Source: a virus. Taken from it: a stretch of 23,544 nucleotides of DNA. Where the stretch lies: IMG/VR virus record IMGVR_UViG_3300048589_000696, positions 1 to 23,544 of that record; one strand, 5' to 3'. The notes under the pieces are model-generated. The model saw nothing but the letters and a program-made list of their open reading frames with translations, had not been told where the DNA came from and did no database searches. The stretch's first letter is position 1, and every line of letters begins with the position of its first letter. Position numbers and translations under genes: made by a program. Positions 44-23,544 of the stretch are shown piece after piece.

Positions 44-1108
44 TCAGTAGTAACCGGTCACGTTGAACCGAAACGACCGGTCACGATGAGCGAAATGCGC
101 ACCGCGAGGCAAGGCCTCAAAGATCGGCCGTAAAAACTCGTCGATCCACGCATCGGTTACAGCGAAGCGCTCGCTGTCAAGAACGAAATCGGCGCGCTTG
201 CTGAAGAGCAACACCGGTGCCGGCACGTTGCACGCCTCGATCAGCATTCTGCTGAAGTAGGCGCCTGTGCCGCGGCGCGGTACGCACTGCAGCTCCTCAT
301 CAGCCAACTCGACAACGGGATAGTCCGCGTAGGCCCCGGCGCGAAACTTGATTTCCGCCTCAGACGACCATTCGAGACCGCGCACCAGGCAGATGCGCTT
401 GTAGAGGCCCATGCGCAAGGCGTCGTCGAACGTGACCCGGTGCAGCGACCAGGGCAGCTTGCCAGCCTTGCAGTCGCGCACGTAGCCGTTGAACGGGTTT
501 TCTTCGCCGTTGTGCGTGCCGCCGATGGAGATCCGGCCGCCCCAGATACGGAACGCCAGCGCACCCGCGATCACGGCCTCGAGGTTCTTGTGGTGGCCGG
601 CTTCGTCGATTCGTGCGTGCCCTTGGCGACCGCGCCAGTTGTGCGGTGCAGAGCTCAGCGCGAGGATCTCATGGCCGCTGGCCAGGTGAATCTTGTAAGT
701 CAGGATGTCCTGACGCTCGTTCTCGATGAGCACCTGTTCATAGCCGACGTCAATTTCACCGCATGCCGCGTTGAACCAGCGCGCGAACGTGGCGCAGTCG
801 CCGATGAACTCGGCCGCCATGCCCTGGTTGTAGCCCATGTAGTACTGGCTCATGCCCTTGCGACCAGGGCGACCAGCTTCGAGCACCGCCTCCGCACCCC
901 AGCCGCCCCAGGTGAATCCGATTCGTCGGCCTTTCTCCATCAGGCGCGTAACCGCCATGTCCTCGTGCCAAGCGACCTGATACGGCAGAAGGATGTAGGG
1001 CACCTGTGTGGAATCCACGTCGCCCAGCATCTTGCCAGAACGCTCGTCTTGGATACGGTTGACAAGTTCTAGCGCTTCGTCGCGCTCGTCGCCTGCAATA
1101 CGCTTCAT
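44..1108 (-). CDS. Mu gp28-like terminase large subunit, C-terminus interrupted
   Basis: This encodes the ATPase half of the DNA-packaging motor that drives phage DNA into the prohead. The 354-residue product has a Walker A-like stretch EKGRRIGFT (about residues 58-66) and a Walker B-like ARIDEAGHH (about 165-173), both typical of Mu-type terminases. Mu-type large terminases are roughly 500-550 residues, so the C-terminal nuclease domain is missing. The reading frame stops at 44-46. Re-reading one base back gives LTVVRWLD, which resembles the DLTVxWxLE stretch expected at the start of the nuclease domain, so a one-base deletion or sequencing error is likely. The ATG at 1108 overlaps the stop of the small terminase gene (ATGA), which supports this start. 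Confidence 0.8.
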   Translation of the reverse strand: MKRIAGDERDEALELVNRIQDERSGKMLGDVDSTQVPYILLPYQVAWHEDMAVTRLMEKGRRIGFTWGGWGAEAVLEAGRPGRKGMSQYYMGYNQGMAAEFIGDCATFARWFNAACGEIDVGYEQVLIENERQDILTYKIHLASGHEILALSSAPHNWRGRQGHARIDEAGHHKNLEAVIAGALAFRIWGGRISIGGTHNGEENPFNGYVRDCKAGKLPWSLHRVTFDDALRMGLYKRICLVRGLEWSSEAEIKFRAGAYADYPVVELADEELQCVPRRGTGAYFSRMLIEACNVPAPVLLFSKRADFVLDSERFAVTDAWIDEFLRPIFEALPRGAHFAHRDRSFRFNVTGYY

Positions 1109-1662
1109 TGCGGCGTCTTGCCGATGCCGAGGAACTCAGCGCGCAGCTTTGCCCATTGGTCATCGCTGAGACCGACGGTCTTGGCCACTTTCTCAGTTGC
1201 CGACGCTTGTCGCTTCAACGCGATCTGCTCGATCTCTTGACGCTCCCGCAGACTCACCCTGCGTGCGTCCATCACGTTGCGAGCAGCACGCGCCAAGTCC
1301 CTGACTTCGACGATTGACACATCGTCTGGCTCGTCGTTTGCGCGCAGCGCGACATGCGTTGCCAGGCTCGTCACAGCCTGCGTCAGCAGCGCTCCGCAGC
1401 GGTCATCGGGGTTTTCGCCGAACTCTGAAACCATCGCCCGAGACGCGGCATCGATCTCGCGCATGCGCCCCATCAACTGGTCCATTGACTGACGATAGCG
1501 CCCTAGCGAACTGCGGCTTGGGATGCTCGCTGCGTGGTCAGGGAACTGTCGGCGCAGTATGTCCAGCATTTCGTCCAGGCTGAACTTGTCAGCACGCAGC
1601 AGGCGCTCGATCTCAGCCCTGATCGTATCCGGCGCCATCTTGACAGAGCTGCGGCGGCCCAT
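1105..1662 (-). CDS. Small terminase-like protein, DUF3486 (Mu gp27 family)
   Basis: The 185-residue product begins MGRRSSVKMAPDTIRAEIE and continues with a helical, helix-turn-helix-like region ending in PSRSSLGRYRQSMDQL, the signature of the DUF3486 family found directly before the large terminase in Mu-like phages. It probably recognises phage DNA for packaging. The C-terminal half is rich in charged helices (REIDAASRAMVSEFGE, RDLARAARNVMDARRVSLRERQEIEQ), consistent with an oligomerisation segment. It overlaps the upstream gene by one base (TGATG) and the large terminase by four (ATGA), so the three are translationally coupled. Confidence 0.85.
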   Translation of the reverse strand: MGRRSSVKMAPDTIRAEIERLLRADKFSLDEMLDILRRQFPDHAASIPSRSSLGRYRQSMDQLMGRMREIDAASRAMVSEFGENPDDRCGALLTQAVTSLATHVALRANDEPDDVSIVEVRDLARAARNVMDARRVSLRERQEIEQIALKRQASATEKVAKTVGLSDDQWAKLRAEFLGIGKTPQ

Positions 1663-5083: not shown

Positions 5084-5782
5084 TCAGCGCTTGCCGAACG
5101 TGGTCGGGGTCAGCGGCTGCGTGGCGCGGCCGCTCGTCATGAGGAAGTGCAGCAGCGAACGCTCTGCCAACTGCGCCATGTCGGATGCCCAGAATCCCCG
5201 CGAGCGCACGCGCTTGTTGAGGTCGACCAGATCATCGTTCACTGCGAATGCATCAGGGATGGCATCCCCCATGCGCAGATCACCGTCCTCGTTGAGGTAG
5301 ACCCTGAAAGCCGGCCATGCAAAGCCCTTCTTGGCACCGCCAATGAGGGCGTTGCTGAACCGTGCGTTTGCGCAGTTCGTGCCGATGGTCCGTCGCTGCT
5401 CGATCGTGATCGTCGTCAGCGCCAGCGCGTCCTGGATGAACACCCACGGTTGCGCTGCACGATCATTCCCCCACCGTCGCGTTGCCTCATCGTCAGACGC
5501 GACGGCCTTGGCGATCGCATCGTCCCAGGCACGCACGCGCACTGCGCCATCGGCACGCGGAGAGCTGATGCCGCTGGCCAGATAGACCACACCCTCGGTG
5601 ACCGGCGCGCCAGAGCGTTGCACCTGCTCCGGGATTGCCTCGTCCAGCGTCCAGCCCAGTTCGGCCAGGCGCAACACGATCATCTGGGACTGCCCCAAAC
5701 GATCATTCAACGCCGCGAGCAGATCTGCGGGCGAGTTGTAGATCGTCAGTAACTCACGCGCCTGTTGCTGATTCACGTCCAT
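5084..5782 (-). CDS. Unrecognised late phage protein
   Basis: I do not recognise this 232-residue protein. It starts MDVNQQQARELLTIYNSPAD with a helical N-terminus (NDRLGQSQMIVLRLAELGW), then a mixed alpha/beta body with WGNDRAAQPWVFIQDAL and FRVYLNEDGDLRMGDAIPDA, and ends in a helical segment AQLAERSLLHFLMTSGRATQ. No TM helix, signal peptide or catalytic motif is evident. The start at 5782 has a strong AAGGAG ribosome-binding site seven bases upstream, so the longer ORF is rejected. Position between the spanins and the fibre cassette suggests a virion or fibre-associated role. Confidence 0.55.
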   Translation of the reverse strand: MDVNQQQARELLTIYNSPADLLAALNDRLGQSQMIVLRLAELGWTLDEAIPEQVQRSGAPVTEGVVYLASGISSPRADGAVRVRAWDDAIAKAVASDDEATRRWGNDRAAQPWVFIQDALALTTITIEQRRTIGTNCANARFSNALIGGAKKGFAWPAFRVYLNEDGDLRMGDAIPDAFAVNDDLVDLNKRVRSRGFWASDMAQLAERSLLHFLMTSGRATQPLTPTTFGKR

Positions 5783-15239: not shown

Positions 15240-17006
15240 ATGAACGCGCGCGACTTCGCCAAATCCGATCTTTTGCGCGAGCTGAAAGTTCAGCTCGACG
15301 CGACGCCGCATGGCGGCAAGGCGGCTCTGGTGCAGTCGGCTGCGGACCGGATGGGTGTAAAGCCGGTCACCATCCACCGCTGGCTCAAGGGCAAGGCTGA
15401 CCGCGTGACCGGCCGCAAGCCGCGCAAGGACAGGGGCGACAGCCGCTTGCCGGTCGAACAGGCGAAGTTCTTGGCGTCCATGCTGGCCCAAGGTGGACGC
15501 CGCAACGGCAAACAGGTGACCACACTGAAGACGGCGCTCGCTATAGCGCAGGCCAACGGCATGGTGGATCGCACGATCAGCCTGAGCACCGCCGAACGCA
15601 TCCTGCGCGATGCGCAGCTGCTGCCTCGCCAGCTCAGCAAAGCAGCGCCGCACACGCGGCTGCGGTCGCTGCATCCCAACCATGTGTGGCAGATCGACCC
15701 CTCGCTGTGCGTCGTCTATTACGAAGGCGGCCGTGTGCGCATCCTCGACACAGCCACCAAGTTCTACAAGAACAACACCGCGTACGTCGAAAAGATGAAC
15801 CCTTTGCGGGTGTGGCGGTACGTGCAAACCGACCACACAACAGGCGCCATCTACGCGCGCTACTACGCGCTGAAGGGTGAGTCCAGCGAGTCCGTGTTCG
15901 AGTTCCTCATGGATGCGATGGCGCCGCGCGATCCGCGTCACATCATGCGCGGCGTGCCCTGGCAACTGGTGTGGGACGCAGGATCAGCCAACAAGTCGCA
16001 TGCCGTCCAACACATGCTGACTGCACTGCAAGTGCGCCATTGGTCGCACGTGCCAGGCAACCCGCGGGCAAAGGGTCAAGTCGAGCAAGGCAACAACCTG
16101 GTTGAGCTGGATTTCGAGGGCCGGCTGCCGTTTTGCGCTGTGCCGTCCGTCGAAGAGCTGAATAGCCACCTGGACGAGTGGCTGGTCGCCAAGAACTCCG
16201 AGCCGTTCTACCGTGACGGCAAGCTGCTGGGATCGCGCTACGGCTTGTGGCAGATGATCCGCGCCGAGCAACTGCGGTTCCGCCCTGAGCGTGCTCAGTG
16301 CGAACTGCTGCTGCAAAGCAAGCCTGAGCCGCGCGTGGTGCGTGGTGACCTGACGATCAGCTTCTCGGTCAAGGGTCATGGATCGGCCAGATACAGTGTT
16401 GAACACATCGAAGGGATCTCCAACGGCGACACCGTCGATGTCGTTGTCAGCGCCTACCACGCGCCGAACATCTGCATCCTGCGCAAGGACGACGAAAACC
16501 GCGTGCGCTACGTGGAATGCACGCCACAACAGGTCGACCACTTCGGGTTCCCGATAGACGCACCCGTGATTGGCGAACGCTTTGCGGCCAAAGCCGAAAC
16601 GCCCGCCGACACCAGGCGCAAGGATCTCGCCGAGATTGCTTACGGCACGCGCGACCTGGCTGAAGCACGCAAGGCCAAAGACAAGGGCGTTGTCCCGTTT
16701 GACGGGCGAATCGACCCCTTCAAAGACATCCGCGAAGCCGCCGCCTTGGCGCCGTCGCACATCGTCCGCCGCGGTACCGAGCTGCACGTGCCCAACCCGG
16801 TGCAGATCGAGCTGAAACCCCTTTCCTTGGTCGAGGCCCTCCAGAACCTGCGGGTTCTGTTCGGCCGATCCATCAAACCCGAGGAGCGCGAGCTTCTCAC
16901 CCAGTGGTACCCCAGTGGCGTCCCGGAGACGGATCTCCAGGACATCGTCAACCGCTTGTCGCAGCCCATCCAGGAGGAACGCCCGCGACTCGCAATCGTC
17001 AGGTAA
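15240..17006 (+). CDS. Mu-like DDE transposase
   Basis: This 588-residue enzyme integrates and replicatively transposes the phage genome by cutting and joining DNA ends. It has an N-terminal DNA-binding HTH (AADRMGVKPVTIHRWLKGKA, about 35-53), an RNase H-like catalytic core with D153 (WQIDPSLC), D246 (LVWDAGSANKS) and E282 (RAKGQVEQGN), then a beta-barrel region and a C-terminal domain expected to contact the ATPase partner. Length and motif order match MuA/BcepMu-type transposases. The next gene starts six bases downstream and the ATPase is two genes further on. The probable binding sites are the 22-bp-spaced repeats at 23492-23535. Confidence 0.93.
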   Translation: MNARDFAKSDLLRELKVQLDATPHGGKAALVQSAADRMGVKPVTIHRWLKGKADRVTGRKPRKDRGDSRLPVEQAKFLASMLAQGGRRNGKQVTTLKTALAIAQANGMVDRTISLSTAERILRDAQLLPRQLSKAAPHTRLRSLHPNHVWQIDPSLCVVYYEGGRVRILDTATKFYKNNTAYVEKMNPLRVWRYVQTDHTTGAIYARYYALKGESSESVFEFLMDAMAPRDPRHIMRGVPWQLVWDAGSANKSHAVQHMLTALQVRHWSHVPGNPRAKGQVEQGNNLVELDFEGRLPFCAVPSVEELNSHLDEWLVAKNSEPFYRDGKLLGSRYGLWQMIRAEQLRFRPERAQCELLLQSKPEPRVVRGDLTISFSVKGHGSARYSVEHIEGISNGDTVDVVVSAYHAPNICILRKDDENRVRYVECTPQQVDHFGFPIDAPVIGERFAAKAETPADTRRKDLAEIAYGTRDLAEARKAKDKGVVPFDGRIDPFKDIREAAALAPSHIVRRGTELHVPNPVQIELKPLSLVEALQNLRVLFGRSIKPEERELLTQWYPSGVPETDLQDIVNRLSQPIQEERPRLAIVR

Positions 17007-17012
17007 CCGACC

Positions 17013-17258
17013 ATGCCCGACCACAATGCAAAACCCGCTCCCAAGCGGTTTGATCCTGATGACCTCGATCTGCCCGTCGCCGTTGCGGCGATGGACGCGA
17101 TCGACGAATACGTGGGCGAGCGCTCCGGCGCTGGCCGCCTGAACGTGGTGCTCGCAAAGCAGCGCATTGCCGCGCTGCACGCTTACCTCCACATCATGGC
17201 CGAAGAGATCGGCGTCGAAGTCGAGCGCTCGATGCGCGCCGAGGGAGTGCCGTCGTGA
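17013..17258 (+). CDS. Small acidic early protein
   Basis: The 81-residue product (MPDHNAKPAPKRFDPDDLDL...) is helical, with VAVAAMDAIDEYVGERSG and LNVVLAKQRIAALHAYLH. I do not recognise it. It sits between the transposase and a small winged-helix gene and is part of the same transcript, its stop overlapping the next start (GTGA). The start has the same leader, AACCGACC before ATG, as the gene at 14409 and no clear Shine-Dalgarno. Confidence 0.5.
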   Translation: MPDHNAKPAPKRFDPDDLDLPVAVAAMDAIDEYVGERSGAGRLNVVLAKQRIAALHAYLHIMAEEIGVEVERSMRAEGVPS

Positions 17259-17470
17259 GCACGTCCCCCCAGTTCACAGGTCTGCAAGTCAGGGTGTGGC
17301 GATTCGTTGCCGATCAACCTGGTGGCACCACGACTGATCGCGACGTCTACACCCATTTCGGCCGGCTGCCTGCAGGCACCGTCCACAACGCACTGCTGGT
17401 GCTGGCGAATGCCGGCCGCATCGATCTCAGCGAAGCTGGAACTCGGCTGACTGCGCGGGGCATGTCATGA
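17255..17470 (+). CDS. Small winged-helix protein upstream of the MuB-like gene
   Basis: The 71-residue product, started by GTG at 17255, has LQVRVWRFVADQPGGTTTDR, then DVYTHFGRLPAGTVHNALLV as turn and recognition helix, then NAGRIDLSEAGTRLTARG as wing. It looks like a minimal winged-helix DNA-binding domain. It overlaps both neighbours by four bases and immediately precedes the transposition ATPase, so a role in target choice or early regulation is possible. Confidence 0.55.
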   Translation: MSTSPQFTGLQVRVWRFVADQPGGTTTDRDVYTHFGRLPAGTVHNALLVLANAGRIDLSEAGTRLTARGMS

Positions 17471-18684
17471 GCCGCCGCCCCGACCAACTCACGCACCCGC
17501 CGATCGGTCTGCGCACGGCGTTGCGGGTCTCGGGTGTCTCGATGCGCGCACTCGCGCGCTTGTGCGCTGGGGTGCGTGGCCGCAACGGCCAGACCATCAG
17601 CCAGACCAGTCTGCATTACCTGGCGCGCAACGGCCTGTGGCCATCTGGCTACGACGTCGACCAGCTGCGCGAGGTAATCGAAACAGCGCTGAGGAATCTC
17701 GGCGTCAGCACCGCAGGAATCTGGGAGCCCGAGGCGGACACCTCGGGCTCCGAGCCCCGAAACCATGAAACGCCAGATCCCAACCAGGAAGGCGTCACAC
17801 AACCCATTCCGGAGCCTGAAATGCTATCAGAAGCAGCACGACGCCACTTTGGCCTGGCGCGCCACCCGTTCGTCAATGAGATCGACGGGCCGCAGGACCT
17901 TATGTTCAGCCGCGACGCGCGCTATGTGCGTGAAGCGATGTACTACGCCGCCAAGCACTGCGGGTTTCTCGCTGTCATCGGTGAATCCGGCGCCGGCAAG
18001 TCCGTTCTGCGCAAGGACCTGATCGAGCGGCTCAAGCGCGGCGACGAGAACGTCACGGTCGTGCAGCCGAAAGTTCCGGACAAGAGCCAGCTCACGGCGC
18101 ATCACATCTGCCATGCGATCCTTGCGGACATCAGCGTCCAGACGCCCAAGGCCAGCCTGGAGGCGCTCGCGCGCCAGGTGGAACGCGCGCTGCTGGATAG
18201 CGCCGCAGCAGGCCGAACCCACGTCCTGCTGATCGAGGAGGCTCACGATCTCACGATATCCGCGCTCAAGTACCTCAAGCGGTTCTGGGAGATCGAGGAC
18301 GGCTTCCGAAAACTGATCGGGATTGTGCTGATCGGGCAGACCGAACTGAGTCAGCTGCTCGATGAGCGCCACAACCCGAAACTGCGCGAAGTGATCCGCC
18401 GCTGCGAAGTGGCCACCCTGCGCCCGCTGGGCGACGACGTGCGCGCCTACGTGGAGCACAAGCTGCGCCGCGTCATGGACAAGTCGCGCGGACTGGAAAC
18501 CGTCATGGACCCCGGCGCCCTGGACGCCGTCCGCCAGCGCCTGCTGTGGCCGCGCCAAGGCAGCAAAGTGCCCGAGGACCAGAGCTACCCGCTCAACGTC
18601 CACAACCTGGTGGTGCGCGCGATGAACGCCGCCGTAGACCTGGGTTACGAGCGCGTCACGGCAGAACTGGTGCGGGAGGCGTGA
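17467..18684 (+). CDS. MuB-like AAA+ transposition ATPase
   Basis: This 405-residue ATPase binds target DNA and activates the transposase. It has an HTH-like N-terminal region (SMRALARLCAGVRGRNGQTI, about 25-44), a Pro/Glu-rich linker (about 86-119) and an AAA+ core with Walker A GESGAGKS (172-179) and Walker B VLLIEEAH (253-260). It belongs to the MuB/ExeA/TniB type. The sensor region may include IGIVLIGQTEL, where a polar residue after the strand fits sensor 1. The ATG overlaps the preceding gene (ATGA). The long N-terminal HTH extension resembles that of MuB itself. Confidence 0.9.
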   Translation: MSRRPDQLTHPPIGLRTALRVSGVSMRALARLCAGVRGRNGQTISQTSLHYLARNGLWPSGYDVDQLREVIETALRNLGVSTAGIWEPEADTSGSEPRNHETPDPNQEGVTQPIPEPEMLSEAARRHFGLARHPFVNEIDGPQDLMFSRDARYVREAMYYAAKHCGFLAVIGESGAGKSVLRKDLIERLKRGDENVTVVQPKVPDKSQLTAHHICHAILADISVQTPKASLEALARQVERALLDSAAAGRTHVLLIEEAHDLTISALKYLKRFWEIEDGFRKLIGIVLIGQTELSQLLDERHNPKLREVIRRCEVATLRPLGDDVRAYVEHKLRRVMDKSRGLETVMDPGALDAVRQRLLWPRQGSKVPEDQSYPLNVHNLVVRAMNAAVDLGYERVTAELVREA

Positions 18685-21659: not shown

Positions 21660-21916
21660 TGAGCCAGCTGCGCTACCGCGAATTCCTCGCGCTGCTGCGG
21701 CATCCACTGGTGCCGCTGGATGCCGACGTCGAGGTCGTGGTGAACGGCGAAGCCAAGCCGGTTGTGCTCGGCATGGTGGGCGACCTGTTGAACAAGGCCT
21801 ATGAGTTCAGCGAAGAAAGGCTGGACTCATGGCTTACGGATGCCGGCATTCAATACAGAGCCAGCGTTAACGTCGGTTGCGTTCGCTACACGCTACGCAT
21901 GAGCGACCCACTATGA
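21659..21916 (+). CDS. Hypothetical small early protein
   Basis: The 85-residue product (MSQLRYREFLALLRHPLVPL...) has alternating strands and helices: DADVEVVVNGEAKPVVLGMV, then FSEERLDSWLTDAGIQYRAS, then VGCVRYTLRMSD. It is not recognised. It overlaps the preceding stop by one base (TGATG) and the gemA start by four. Position next to gam- and gemA-like genes suggests an accessory early role. Confidence 0.5.
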   Translation: MSQLRYREFLALLRHPLVPLDADVEVVVNGEAKPVVLGMVGDLLNKAYEFSEERLDSWLTDAGIQYRASVNVGCVRYTLRMSDPL

Positions 21917-22416
21917 CCGCCAAGCCGCTCCGCGCCCGCGACCTCGCGCAGATTCACATCGCCAAGCAGCAGCTGGGCCTCGATGACGATACGTACCGCG
22001 AAATGCTGTTCACGGTCACCCGCAAGCGCAGCGCCAGCGACCTCGACGCGCACGAACGCAACCAGGTGCTCCAACACCTGATGTCGCGCGGCTGGAAGCC
22101 CAAGCAGACCACTGCGCCGCGCGAACGCGTAGCCAAGGCGCCGCCACAGGTGCGCCTGATCTACGCGCTGTGGGGCCTGCTGGCGCGCAACGGCGCGATT
22201 CAGGACCGATCACCGTCGGCTCTCCGGGCGTGGGTGCGCCATTGGGGCCAGGCGACGCCGGAGGACGTGGGCGAGGGCGCCCCGGAAATGCTCCCCGCTC
22301 CTGTGCGCCACCGCGTCGCCGAGTACCTGATCCAGTGGTGTCTGCGCCTTGGTATCGCCGTCAACGCCGTCGATCGCCAGCCGGTAAAACCCAAGCGCGA
22401 GAAGTCGCACCGATGA
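21913..22416 (+). CDS. gemA: GemA-family protein (Mu gp16, DUF1018)
   Basis: The 167-residue product carries the family signature: RDLAQIHIAKQQLGLDDDTY (about 9-28), REMLFTVTRKRSASDLDAHE (about 29-48) and HLMSRGWKPK, then a central RLIYALWGLLARNGAI and VRHWGQA. GemA in Mu affects host gene expression and DNA supercoiling, and DUF1018 proteins appear just before mor in transposable phages. Here it also directly precedes the Mor-family gene, overlapping it by four bases. Confidence 0.88.
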   Translation: MTAKPLRARDLAQIHIAKQQLGLDDDTYREMLFTVTRKRSASDLDAHERNQVLQHLMSRGWKPKQTTAPRERVAKAPPQVRLIYALWGLLARNGAIQDRSPSALRAWVRHWGQATPEDVGEGAPEMLPAPVRHRVAEYLIQWCLRLGIAVNAVDRQPVKPKREKSHR

Positions 22417-22763
22417 GCGACCGCGTCGTTGATGCCCACGGAGTACTCCACGAAGCGGTCGCACTGCTGACGCGATCGCTCATGGATCGTCGCGTCTGCA
22501 TTGATGATGAGGAAGCCAAGGACATCGCAGAAGCCTGCCTCATTGACACCTGGCGCGAGTTCGCCGGCAGCACCATCTACGTGCGCCGCACCATCGAGAA
22601 CCTGATTCCAGCGCGCGATCGCAAGCTCTACGCCGACCACCAGGCCGGCACACCGATTGTCGAGTTGGTGCGCCGATACAAGCTCAGCGACTCCTATATC
22701 TATCGCGTCATCAAGCGCATCGAGAAGATCGGCGCCCCGGAACAGCAGGCGCTGTTCCCATGA
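22413..22763 (+). CDS. mor: Mor-family transcription activator
   Basis: The 116-residue product has the Mor pattern: N-terminal helices (EAKDIAEACLIDTWREFAGS), the dimerisation strand STIYVRRTIENLIPARDRKL (about 53-72), then the C-terminal HTH GTPIVELVRRYKLSDSYIYR (about 79-98). Mor activates the middle promoter in Mu and starts late expression. Here the likely target is the divergent late arm, perhaps near the inverted repeat at 8219-8246, although I cannot show that. It overlaps gemA and the next gene. Confidence 0.85.
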   Translation: MSDRVVDAHGVLHEAVALLTRSLMDRRVCIDDEEAKDIAEACLIDTWREFAGSTIYVRRTIENLIPARDRKLYADHQAGTPIVELVRRYKLSDSYIYRVIKRIEKIGAPEQQALFP

Positions 22764-23059: not shown

Positions 23060-23365
23060 TTGCAGCCGCAACGCGAGCCCCTTTCCACCGCTGAAACGGT
23101 GAATCAGGCCAGGGCTCCCCACCTCGATCCACCGTACTGGGAGACCACCGGCTACGGCGTCCCGTTCGATCTGAGCCAGTACGAACTGATGGCTGATCTG
23201 CTCAGCAAGCTGCAGGGCAAAGCCCTTCTCAGCATCAACGACCACCCCGAGATGCGCCGCATCTTCGCCAGCTTCCCCGTGGTCGAGACTTCACTCCGCT
23301 ACACCATAGGTGCCAGCGGCCGCGACAAGCAGCGCGGTGAACTGATCTACCGCATCAACTGCTGA
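23060..23365 (+). pseudogene. 5'-truncated Dam-type adenine methyltransferase remnant
   Basis: The reading frame contains LDPPYWETTGYGVPFDLSQY (from 23123), then LQGKALLSINDHPEMRRIFA and ELIYRINC, the C-terminal hallmarks of D12-class (Dam-like) DNA N6-adenine methyltransferases, including catalytic DPPY at 23126-23137. A full enzyme is about 260-280 residues and needs an N-terminal SAM-binding FxG motif, which is absent. In-frame upstream sequence back to the stop at 23033 codes no methylase sequence. The fragment therefore looks like a deletion remnant. The only possible start is a TTG (23060), without support. The terminator begins four bases after its stop. Confidence 0.75.
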
Positions 23366-23368
23366 CCC

Positions 23369-23395
23369 CGGAGCGGCCTTGCGCCGCTCCGTTTT
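23369..23395 (+). terminator. Rho-independent terminator of the early operon
   Basis: CGGAGCGGC (23369-23377) pairs with GCCGCTCCG (23383-23391) across a CTTGC loop and is followed by TTTT (23392-23395). The 9-bp GC-rich perfect stem and T-run make a clear intrinsic terminator, immediately after the methylase remnant stop. It would stop early rightward transcription before the phage end. Confidence 0.9.
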
Positions 23396-23454
23396 GCTGC
23401 CCAGAACCGGCGGCTAATTTTCTTCCGCCTGTGCGAACATTCTTCACTTTTGGC

Positions 23455-23482
23455 TTGTCCCACTACGTCCCGTTGCTACACT
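23455..23482 (+). promoter_or_regulatory. Possible outward-facing sigma70-like promoter
   Basis: TTGTCC (23455-23460) and TACACT (23477-23482) are separated by 16 bases; each matches four of six consensus bases. It lies downstream of the early terminator and points toward the proposed phage end. It could drive flanking host DNA or be fortuitous. The rest of 23396-23490 shows nothing I can name. Confidence 0.3.
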
Positions 23483-23491
23483 CTAAATCCC

Positions 23492-23535
23492 CTTATCTCA
23501 AGCCCGTGCTGGACTTATCTCAAGCCCGATCAGCA
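23492..23535. repeat. Two 22-bp-spaced repeats, likely transposase-binding sites at the phage end
   Basis: The 15-base core CTTATCTCAAGCCCG occurs exactly at 23492-23506 and 23514-23528, a period of 22 bp, the length of a MuA-type binding site. The second unit ends in CA (23534-23535), the terminal dinucleotide of Mu-like elements when read into the host. In reverse complement the end would read TGCTGATCGGGCTTG, starting with TG. The placement beyond the early operon terminator fits the left end of a BcepMu-like genome in reverse orientation. Confidence 0.6.
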
Positions 23536-23544
23536 AGCGGGGAG

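Follow-up and report, generated by a model that had tools for sequence, protein, structure and literature searches.

Left terminus of a transposable B3-like phage at the edge of a viral contig, with a candidate packaging-start array

The last bases of the window, by which we mean the whole 23,544-nt stretch of virus record IMGVR_UViG_3300048589_000696, almost certainly form the end of a B3-like transposable phage on its left, early-gene side. Positions 23457 to 23532 hold two tandem transposase-type sites, L1 and L2, and, with less certainty, an adjoining candidate pac array (Table 1). Sequence comparison fixes the phage boundary, the two sites and their spacing, their conservation across the family and the 6-bp target duplications of relatives, and the window end is an ordinary left end for the B3-like family. 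A preliminary description had read this stretch as the left end of a transposable phage, bounded by TG/CA and holding tandem 22-bp transposase-type sites; it was right in kind, and its base-level boundary and duplication length are revised here.

Table 1. Features of the window and flanks of the two closest prophages
Feature	Position	Strand	Evidence or remark
Large terminase, apparently shortened	44..1108	-	58% identical to a relative, residues 2-335
Small terminase, Gp27 family; proposed array reader	1105..1662	-	PF11985, E 1.5e-29
B3-type DDE transposase (A protein)	15240..17006	+	rve domain; 33% identical to B3 transposase over its length
AAA+ ATPase, transposition protein B	17467..18684	+	PF13401; position as in B3
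GemA	21877..22416	+	PF06252
Mor-family late activator	22431..22763	+	PF08765; near left end, B3 order
10-bp-phased YGGGAY array, candidate pac	23457..23492	-	units 23492, 23482 (degenerate), 23472, 23462
L2, second transposase-type site	23489..23510	-	core TGAGATAA 23500-23493; exact repeat, 22 bp from L1
L1, outer transposase-type site	23511..23532	-	core TGAGATAA 23522-23515; core at +11 to +18 in nearly all 36 ends
Terminal TG of phage (CA on + strand)	23531..23532	-	TG at register in 36/36 left ends; independent profile
Flank outside phage, GCAAGCGGGGAG	23533..23544	.	relatives' homology ends at 23532; 6-bp duplications in six relatives
C3 prophage (L084)	right end 40.0 kb away		both ends flanked by AACGGG
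C57 prophage (L083)	right end found by motif alone		both ends flanked by CCGTGC

The genes of the window are arranged as in B3. The B3-type DDE transposase is followed by the AAA+ B protein, GemA and Mor close the early block, which is read in the direction of the left end, and the late genes are divergent. From its left end, B3 carries Mor, GemA and, further in, B and the transposase, then divergent late genes; since the window read backwards has this order, its right edge corresponds to the phage left end. Dozens of B3-type transposases have a left end of the same type downstream of them. Complete B3-like genomes are about 36-40 kb; the record is a 23.5-kb fragment, and its closest full-length relative is 40.0 kb. 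Because the 23,544-base record is the entire virus contig, the opposite phage end lies outside it. At the other contig edge, the large-terminase frame has 354 aa versus 471-486 aa in relatives, with a frameshift or break being possible, and its similarity to a relative ends at residue 335, just short of the edge. The DNA encoding the transposase C-terminus (window 16705-17178) is 91% identical to that of another locus, L004 (8157-8631), and the proteins are 57% identical overall, which on this sequence comparison is mosaic recombination within the transposase gene.

The 15-bp core CTTATCTCAAGCCCG that had been described at 22-bp spacing is present exactly at 23492-23506 and 23514-23528, and a third copy was not found in the record with up to two mismatches allowed. 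These 15 nt at period 22 are the longest exact run in the window at periods of 15-40, and of 200 sequences simulated from a Markov model of the window, only one had a run of at least 15 nt; the repeat is real and a chance origin is unlikely. Its noncoding location past a terminator was likewise borne out, the last plausible gene stopping at 23365 and a G+C-rich hairpin, with TTTT after it, lying at approximately 23371-23398, as judged by eye.

To place the boundary independently, a profile was built from nine other left ends, with the window and its two close relatives left out. This profile matches the window and stops at 23532 (E 8e-4). The full left-end profile, run on fetched loci, yielded 36 non-redundant ends, each of which starts with TG and has a TGAGATAA-type core 10 nt further in; with few exceptions that core occupies +11 to +18. 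The second core is 22 or 23 bp from the first, 23 being the commoner, and the flanks have no strong consensus. The window, where TG lies 10 nt out from the first core and the second core is at 22 bp, falls within this B3-like arrangement of 22-23 bp.

The closest relatives are two prophages in a Lysobacterales MAG (G008), on contigs C57 and C3, whose transposases are 87% and 56% identical to that of the window and whose first 19 nt of the left end are identical to the window's. Both have TGATCGGGCTTGAGATAAG in common with the window, and the sequence outside diverges. In both prophages L2 lies at 23 bp and has changed to GTGACATAA, whereas the L2 of the window keeps TGAGATAA at 22. In this genome every exact copy of the core lies at an end of one of the two related prophages, none apart from a phage, and homology between them and the window stops at the proposed end rather than continuing past it. 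Six related prophages could be followed to both ends; the ends are TG...CA and the duplications are all 6 bp. Besides the two in Table 1 these are GCCTCG, CTAAAA, ACAAAC and ATCAAC, from a further four prophages, in a search that was open to 5, 6 or 7 bp and gave 6 each time. Ends were paired over fifteen prophages and scored with internal repeats, and 10 of the 15 gave no resolved pair. The B3 duplication is also stated to be 6 bp (PMC8705779). The 5-bp duplication assumed in the preliminary description therefore gives way to one of 6 bp, and the corrected prediction from sequence is that GCAAGC (23533 onward), not AGCGG, should precede the opposite TG.

The earlier reading placed the phage end at the CA at 23534-23535, with TGCTGATCGGG as terminus and AGCGG as a 5-bp target. 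That CA is present; the window and the C57 prophage match over three further bases (TGC), so that BLAST extends to 23535, and 5-bp duplications are found in Mu (PMC8705779), with 5-bp repeats also reported for a D3112 relative (PMC6435834). However, the C57 duplication, CCGTGC, itself includes TGC, fixing that end at TGATC, and the C3 prophage lacks TGC. A terminus at 23535 would also give a register of 13 rather than 10, and the duplications of all six relatives are 6 bp. We consider an end at 23535 very improbable, and the BLAST stop was dropped as a boundary because the relatives show the three extra shared bases to be non-phage. The TG register in 36/36 ends, together with the AACGGG and CCGTGC duplications of the two closest prophages, sets the end 3 bp inward, with 23531-23532 as the terminal CA and 23534-23535 as flank. 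Non-phage DNA does lie beyond the end as had been proposed, but it covers 12 bp rather than 23536-23544 alone, and these 12 bases are predicted to be host DNA. The repeat is only 12 bp from the contig end, where a chance repeat or an assembly artefact might be suspected; the same end occurs at prophage edges inside long bacterial contigs and in deposited B3-like phage genomes, which leaves that explanation a negligible probability.

Taken from the outermost base inward, the right ends of B3, PM105 and the six prophages (eight in all) start with TG, followed by a core and by a second core about 22 bp inward. These cores, for example TGACATAA in the closest relatives or CGCGAAAA, have about the same register as in left ends. 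Each end has a tandem pair, the pairs are mutually inverted, and the right cores differ from the left cores. By analogy with the Mu paradigm, transposase subunits would bind L1, L2 and two inverted right-end sites, synapse the ends and cut beside CA, and both 3' ends would be joined to host DNA six bases apart, giving the 6-bp duplication. Because the right-end cores have diverged, looking for the 15-mer in exact inverted form, as originally suggested, would give nothing even in a complete relative. The far end of the window's phage was absent from all records searchable: an exact-overlap search at the left edge of the window reached one record, adding 26 bp, and exact patterns of the window end had no match among viral contigs. 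Four matches to the predicted far end, GCAAGC+TGATGCGCGC, were taken as chance, the second core being missing, and none of 37 viral contigs matching the right-end motif was a phage end when inspected.

Among characterized phages, B3 and PM105 (Beetrevirus, Pseudomonas) resemble the window in left-end gene order, transposase family, Gp27-type terminase and the array described below, and have TG 10 nt outside a TGAGA-type core. Their second core is 23 bp in, their right-end core pair is at 22 bp, and their core is TGAGAAAT versus TGAGATAA in the window, which differs from both phages in its two identical cores, 22 bp apart, and in a further two small ORFs separating Mor from the end. Mu has a TG terminus, a Gp27-type terminase and a 10-bp-phased array (Mu nt 32-67) in common with the window, but its transposase subfamily and end sites are different. 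The D3112 group (Casadabanvirus, Pseudomonas) is made up of transposable siphophages that, like the window, have TG ends and 22-bp sites; the D3112 sites are at 10, 93 and 124 bp (PMC4378225), in contrast to the window cores at 10 and 32, and D3112, unlike the window, has neither PF11985 nor an array at its end.

YGGGAY hexamers are found in left ends on the stretch that separates L2 from the first gene. Successive YGGGA units follow one another at 5, 10, 20, 25 or 30 bp; of 63 YGGGA pair distances, 53 are multiples of 10. At least one hexamer is present in 8/8 left ends defined without the profile (six prophages, B3 and PM105), and none in the right ends of the same eight. The full-length end profile includes the array, which makes array conservation among its matches partly circular, so a profile of the first 42 nt was used: all 14 new ends that it gave were at or above the 99th percentile relative to random places in the same loci. 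In a whole-genome scan of Mu the best array site is nt 32-67, matching at 22 of 24 positions, versus at most 20 in simulated genomes, and the best sites in B3 (nt 44) and Vibrio phage 1.028 (nt 39) are also at the left end. The corresponding scan of D3112 found no array at the end. In the window the top site starts at 23492 (-) with a modest 19/24, one unit being degenerate, and the next best site scores 18. PF11985 was found in Mu, B3, PM105, JBD25 and most prophage genomes tested, and D3112 gave no match. An exception is the L087 prophage of Sedimenticola (genome G011), which has an array-like end and no PF11985 match in the genome; at 5451-5541 (+) its left-end-like sequence is upstream of the transposase and reads toward it, unlike the B3 layout.

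Since Mu and B3 have Gp27 in common but unlike transposase subfamilies and end sites, the array seems, from these sequences, to travel with the Gp27-type small terminase rather than with the transposase type. The limits of the Mu pac site are reportedly nt 32-54. Its mapping by Groenen and van de Putte in 1985 is referenced in PMC5418689. PM105 has long host DNA on the right (PMC4777764), from which its packaging would start at the left. With the exception of G011, the array is found only at the end where packaging would start, in company with PF11985. The Gp27 association, the left start in PM105 and the Mu mapping lead us to propose, with less certainty than the phage end itself, that the array is a candidate pac site at which the Gp27-type small terminase may start packaging, just inside L2. 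Less probably, in our view, the array is instead a further site for transposase or an accessory protein, such as an L3-like site or one that bends the DNA for the end complex. It directly adjoins L2, and further inward transposase sites exist in Mu and D3112-like ends (PMC4378225). Against this, the array is present in Mu, whose end sites and transposase are unlike those of B3, and in Vibrio 1.028, yet not at the D3112 end, and so follows PF11985; it is missing from 8/8 right ends, and its unit is 10 bp as opposed to the 22 bp of the transposase-type sites. The broader form of the packaging proposal, which we regard as evenly balanced, is that Gp27-type transposable phages from Mu to the B3 group have one packaging-start signal, four YGGGAY in exact 10-bp phase inside the left end, that would be read by Gp27 and travel with the terminase and not the transposase. 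We found no paper stating such a common Mu/B3 packaging signal, in a search that did not cover key older papers.

With the end fixed to the base, the duplication becomes testable, and the profile can find B3-like ends in unannotated genomes. If the array is indeed common to Mu and B3-like phages, it would be a concrete sequence for choosing where packaging starts amid a chromosome full of phage copies, and would offer a simple Gp27 binding test.

The C57 prophage, the closest to the window (L186, G008:C57:10809-23314), is 12.5 kb long with both ends and an intact 6-bp duplication, and an internal deletion seems to have removed its late genes. Arrays of the 7-bp units GGGGCAC/GGGGAAC lie beside or around both G008 prophages (C3:59000-59074, C3:99100-99170 and C57:23315-23360). 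Such arrays occur throughout this MAG (279 and 281 pattern matches), and the position of the prophages by them may be chance or target preference. Among deposited phages, L277 (OM835952.1) is deposited as Klebsiella phage KP12 (Vequintavirinae), clone 2; its gene content and transposase make it a 35-kb contig of a Mu-like transposable phage, and the record looks misassigned. The top listed match to the window transposase in the phage collection (37.5%) is a protein called "hypothetical" in Microcystis phage Mae-JY22 (L222, PP438414.1:12171-13946), and Mae-JY22 is therefore probably transposable.
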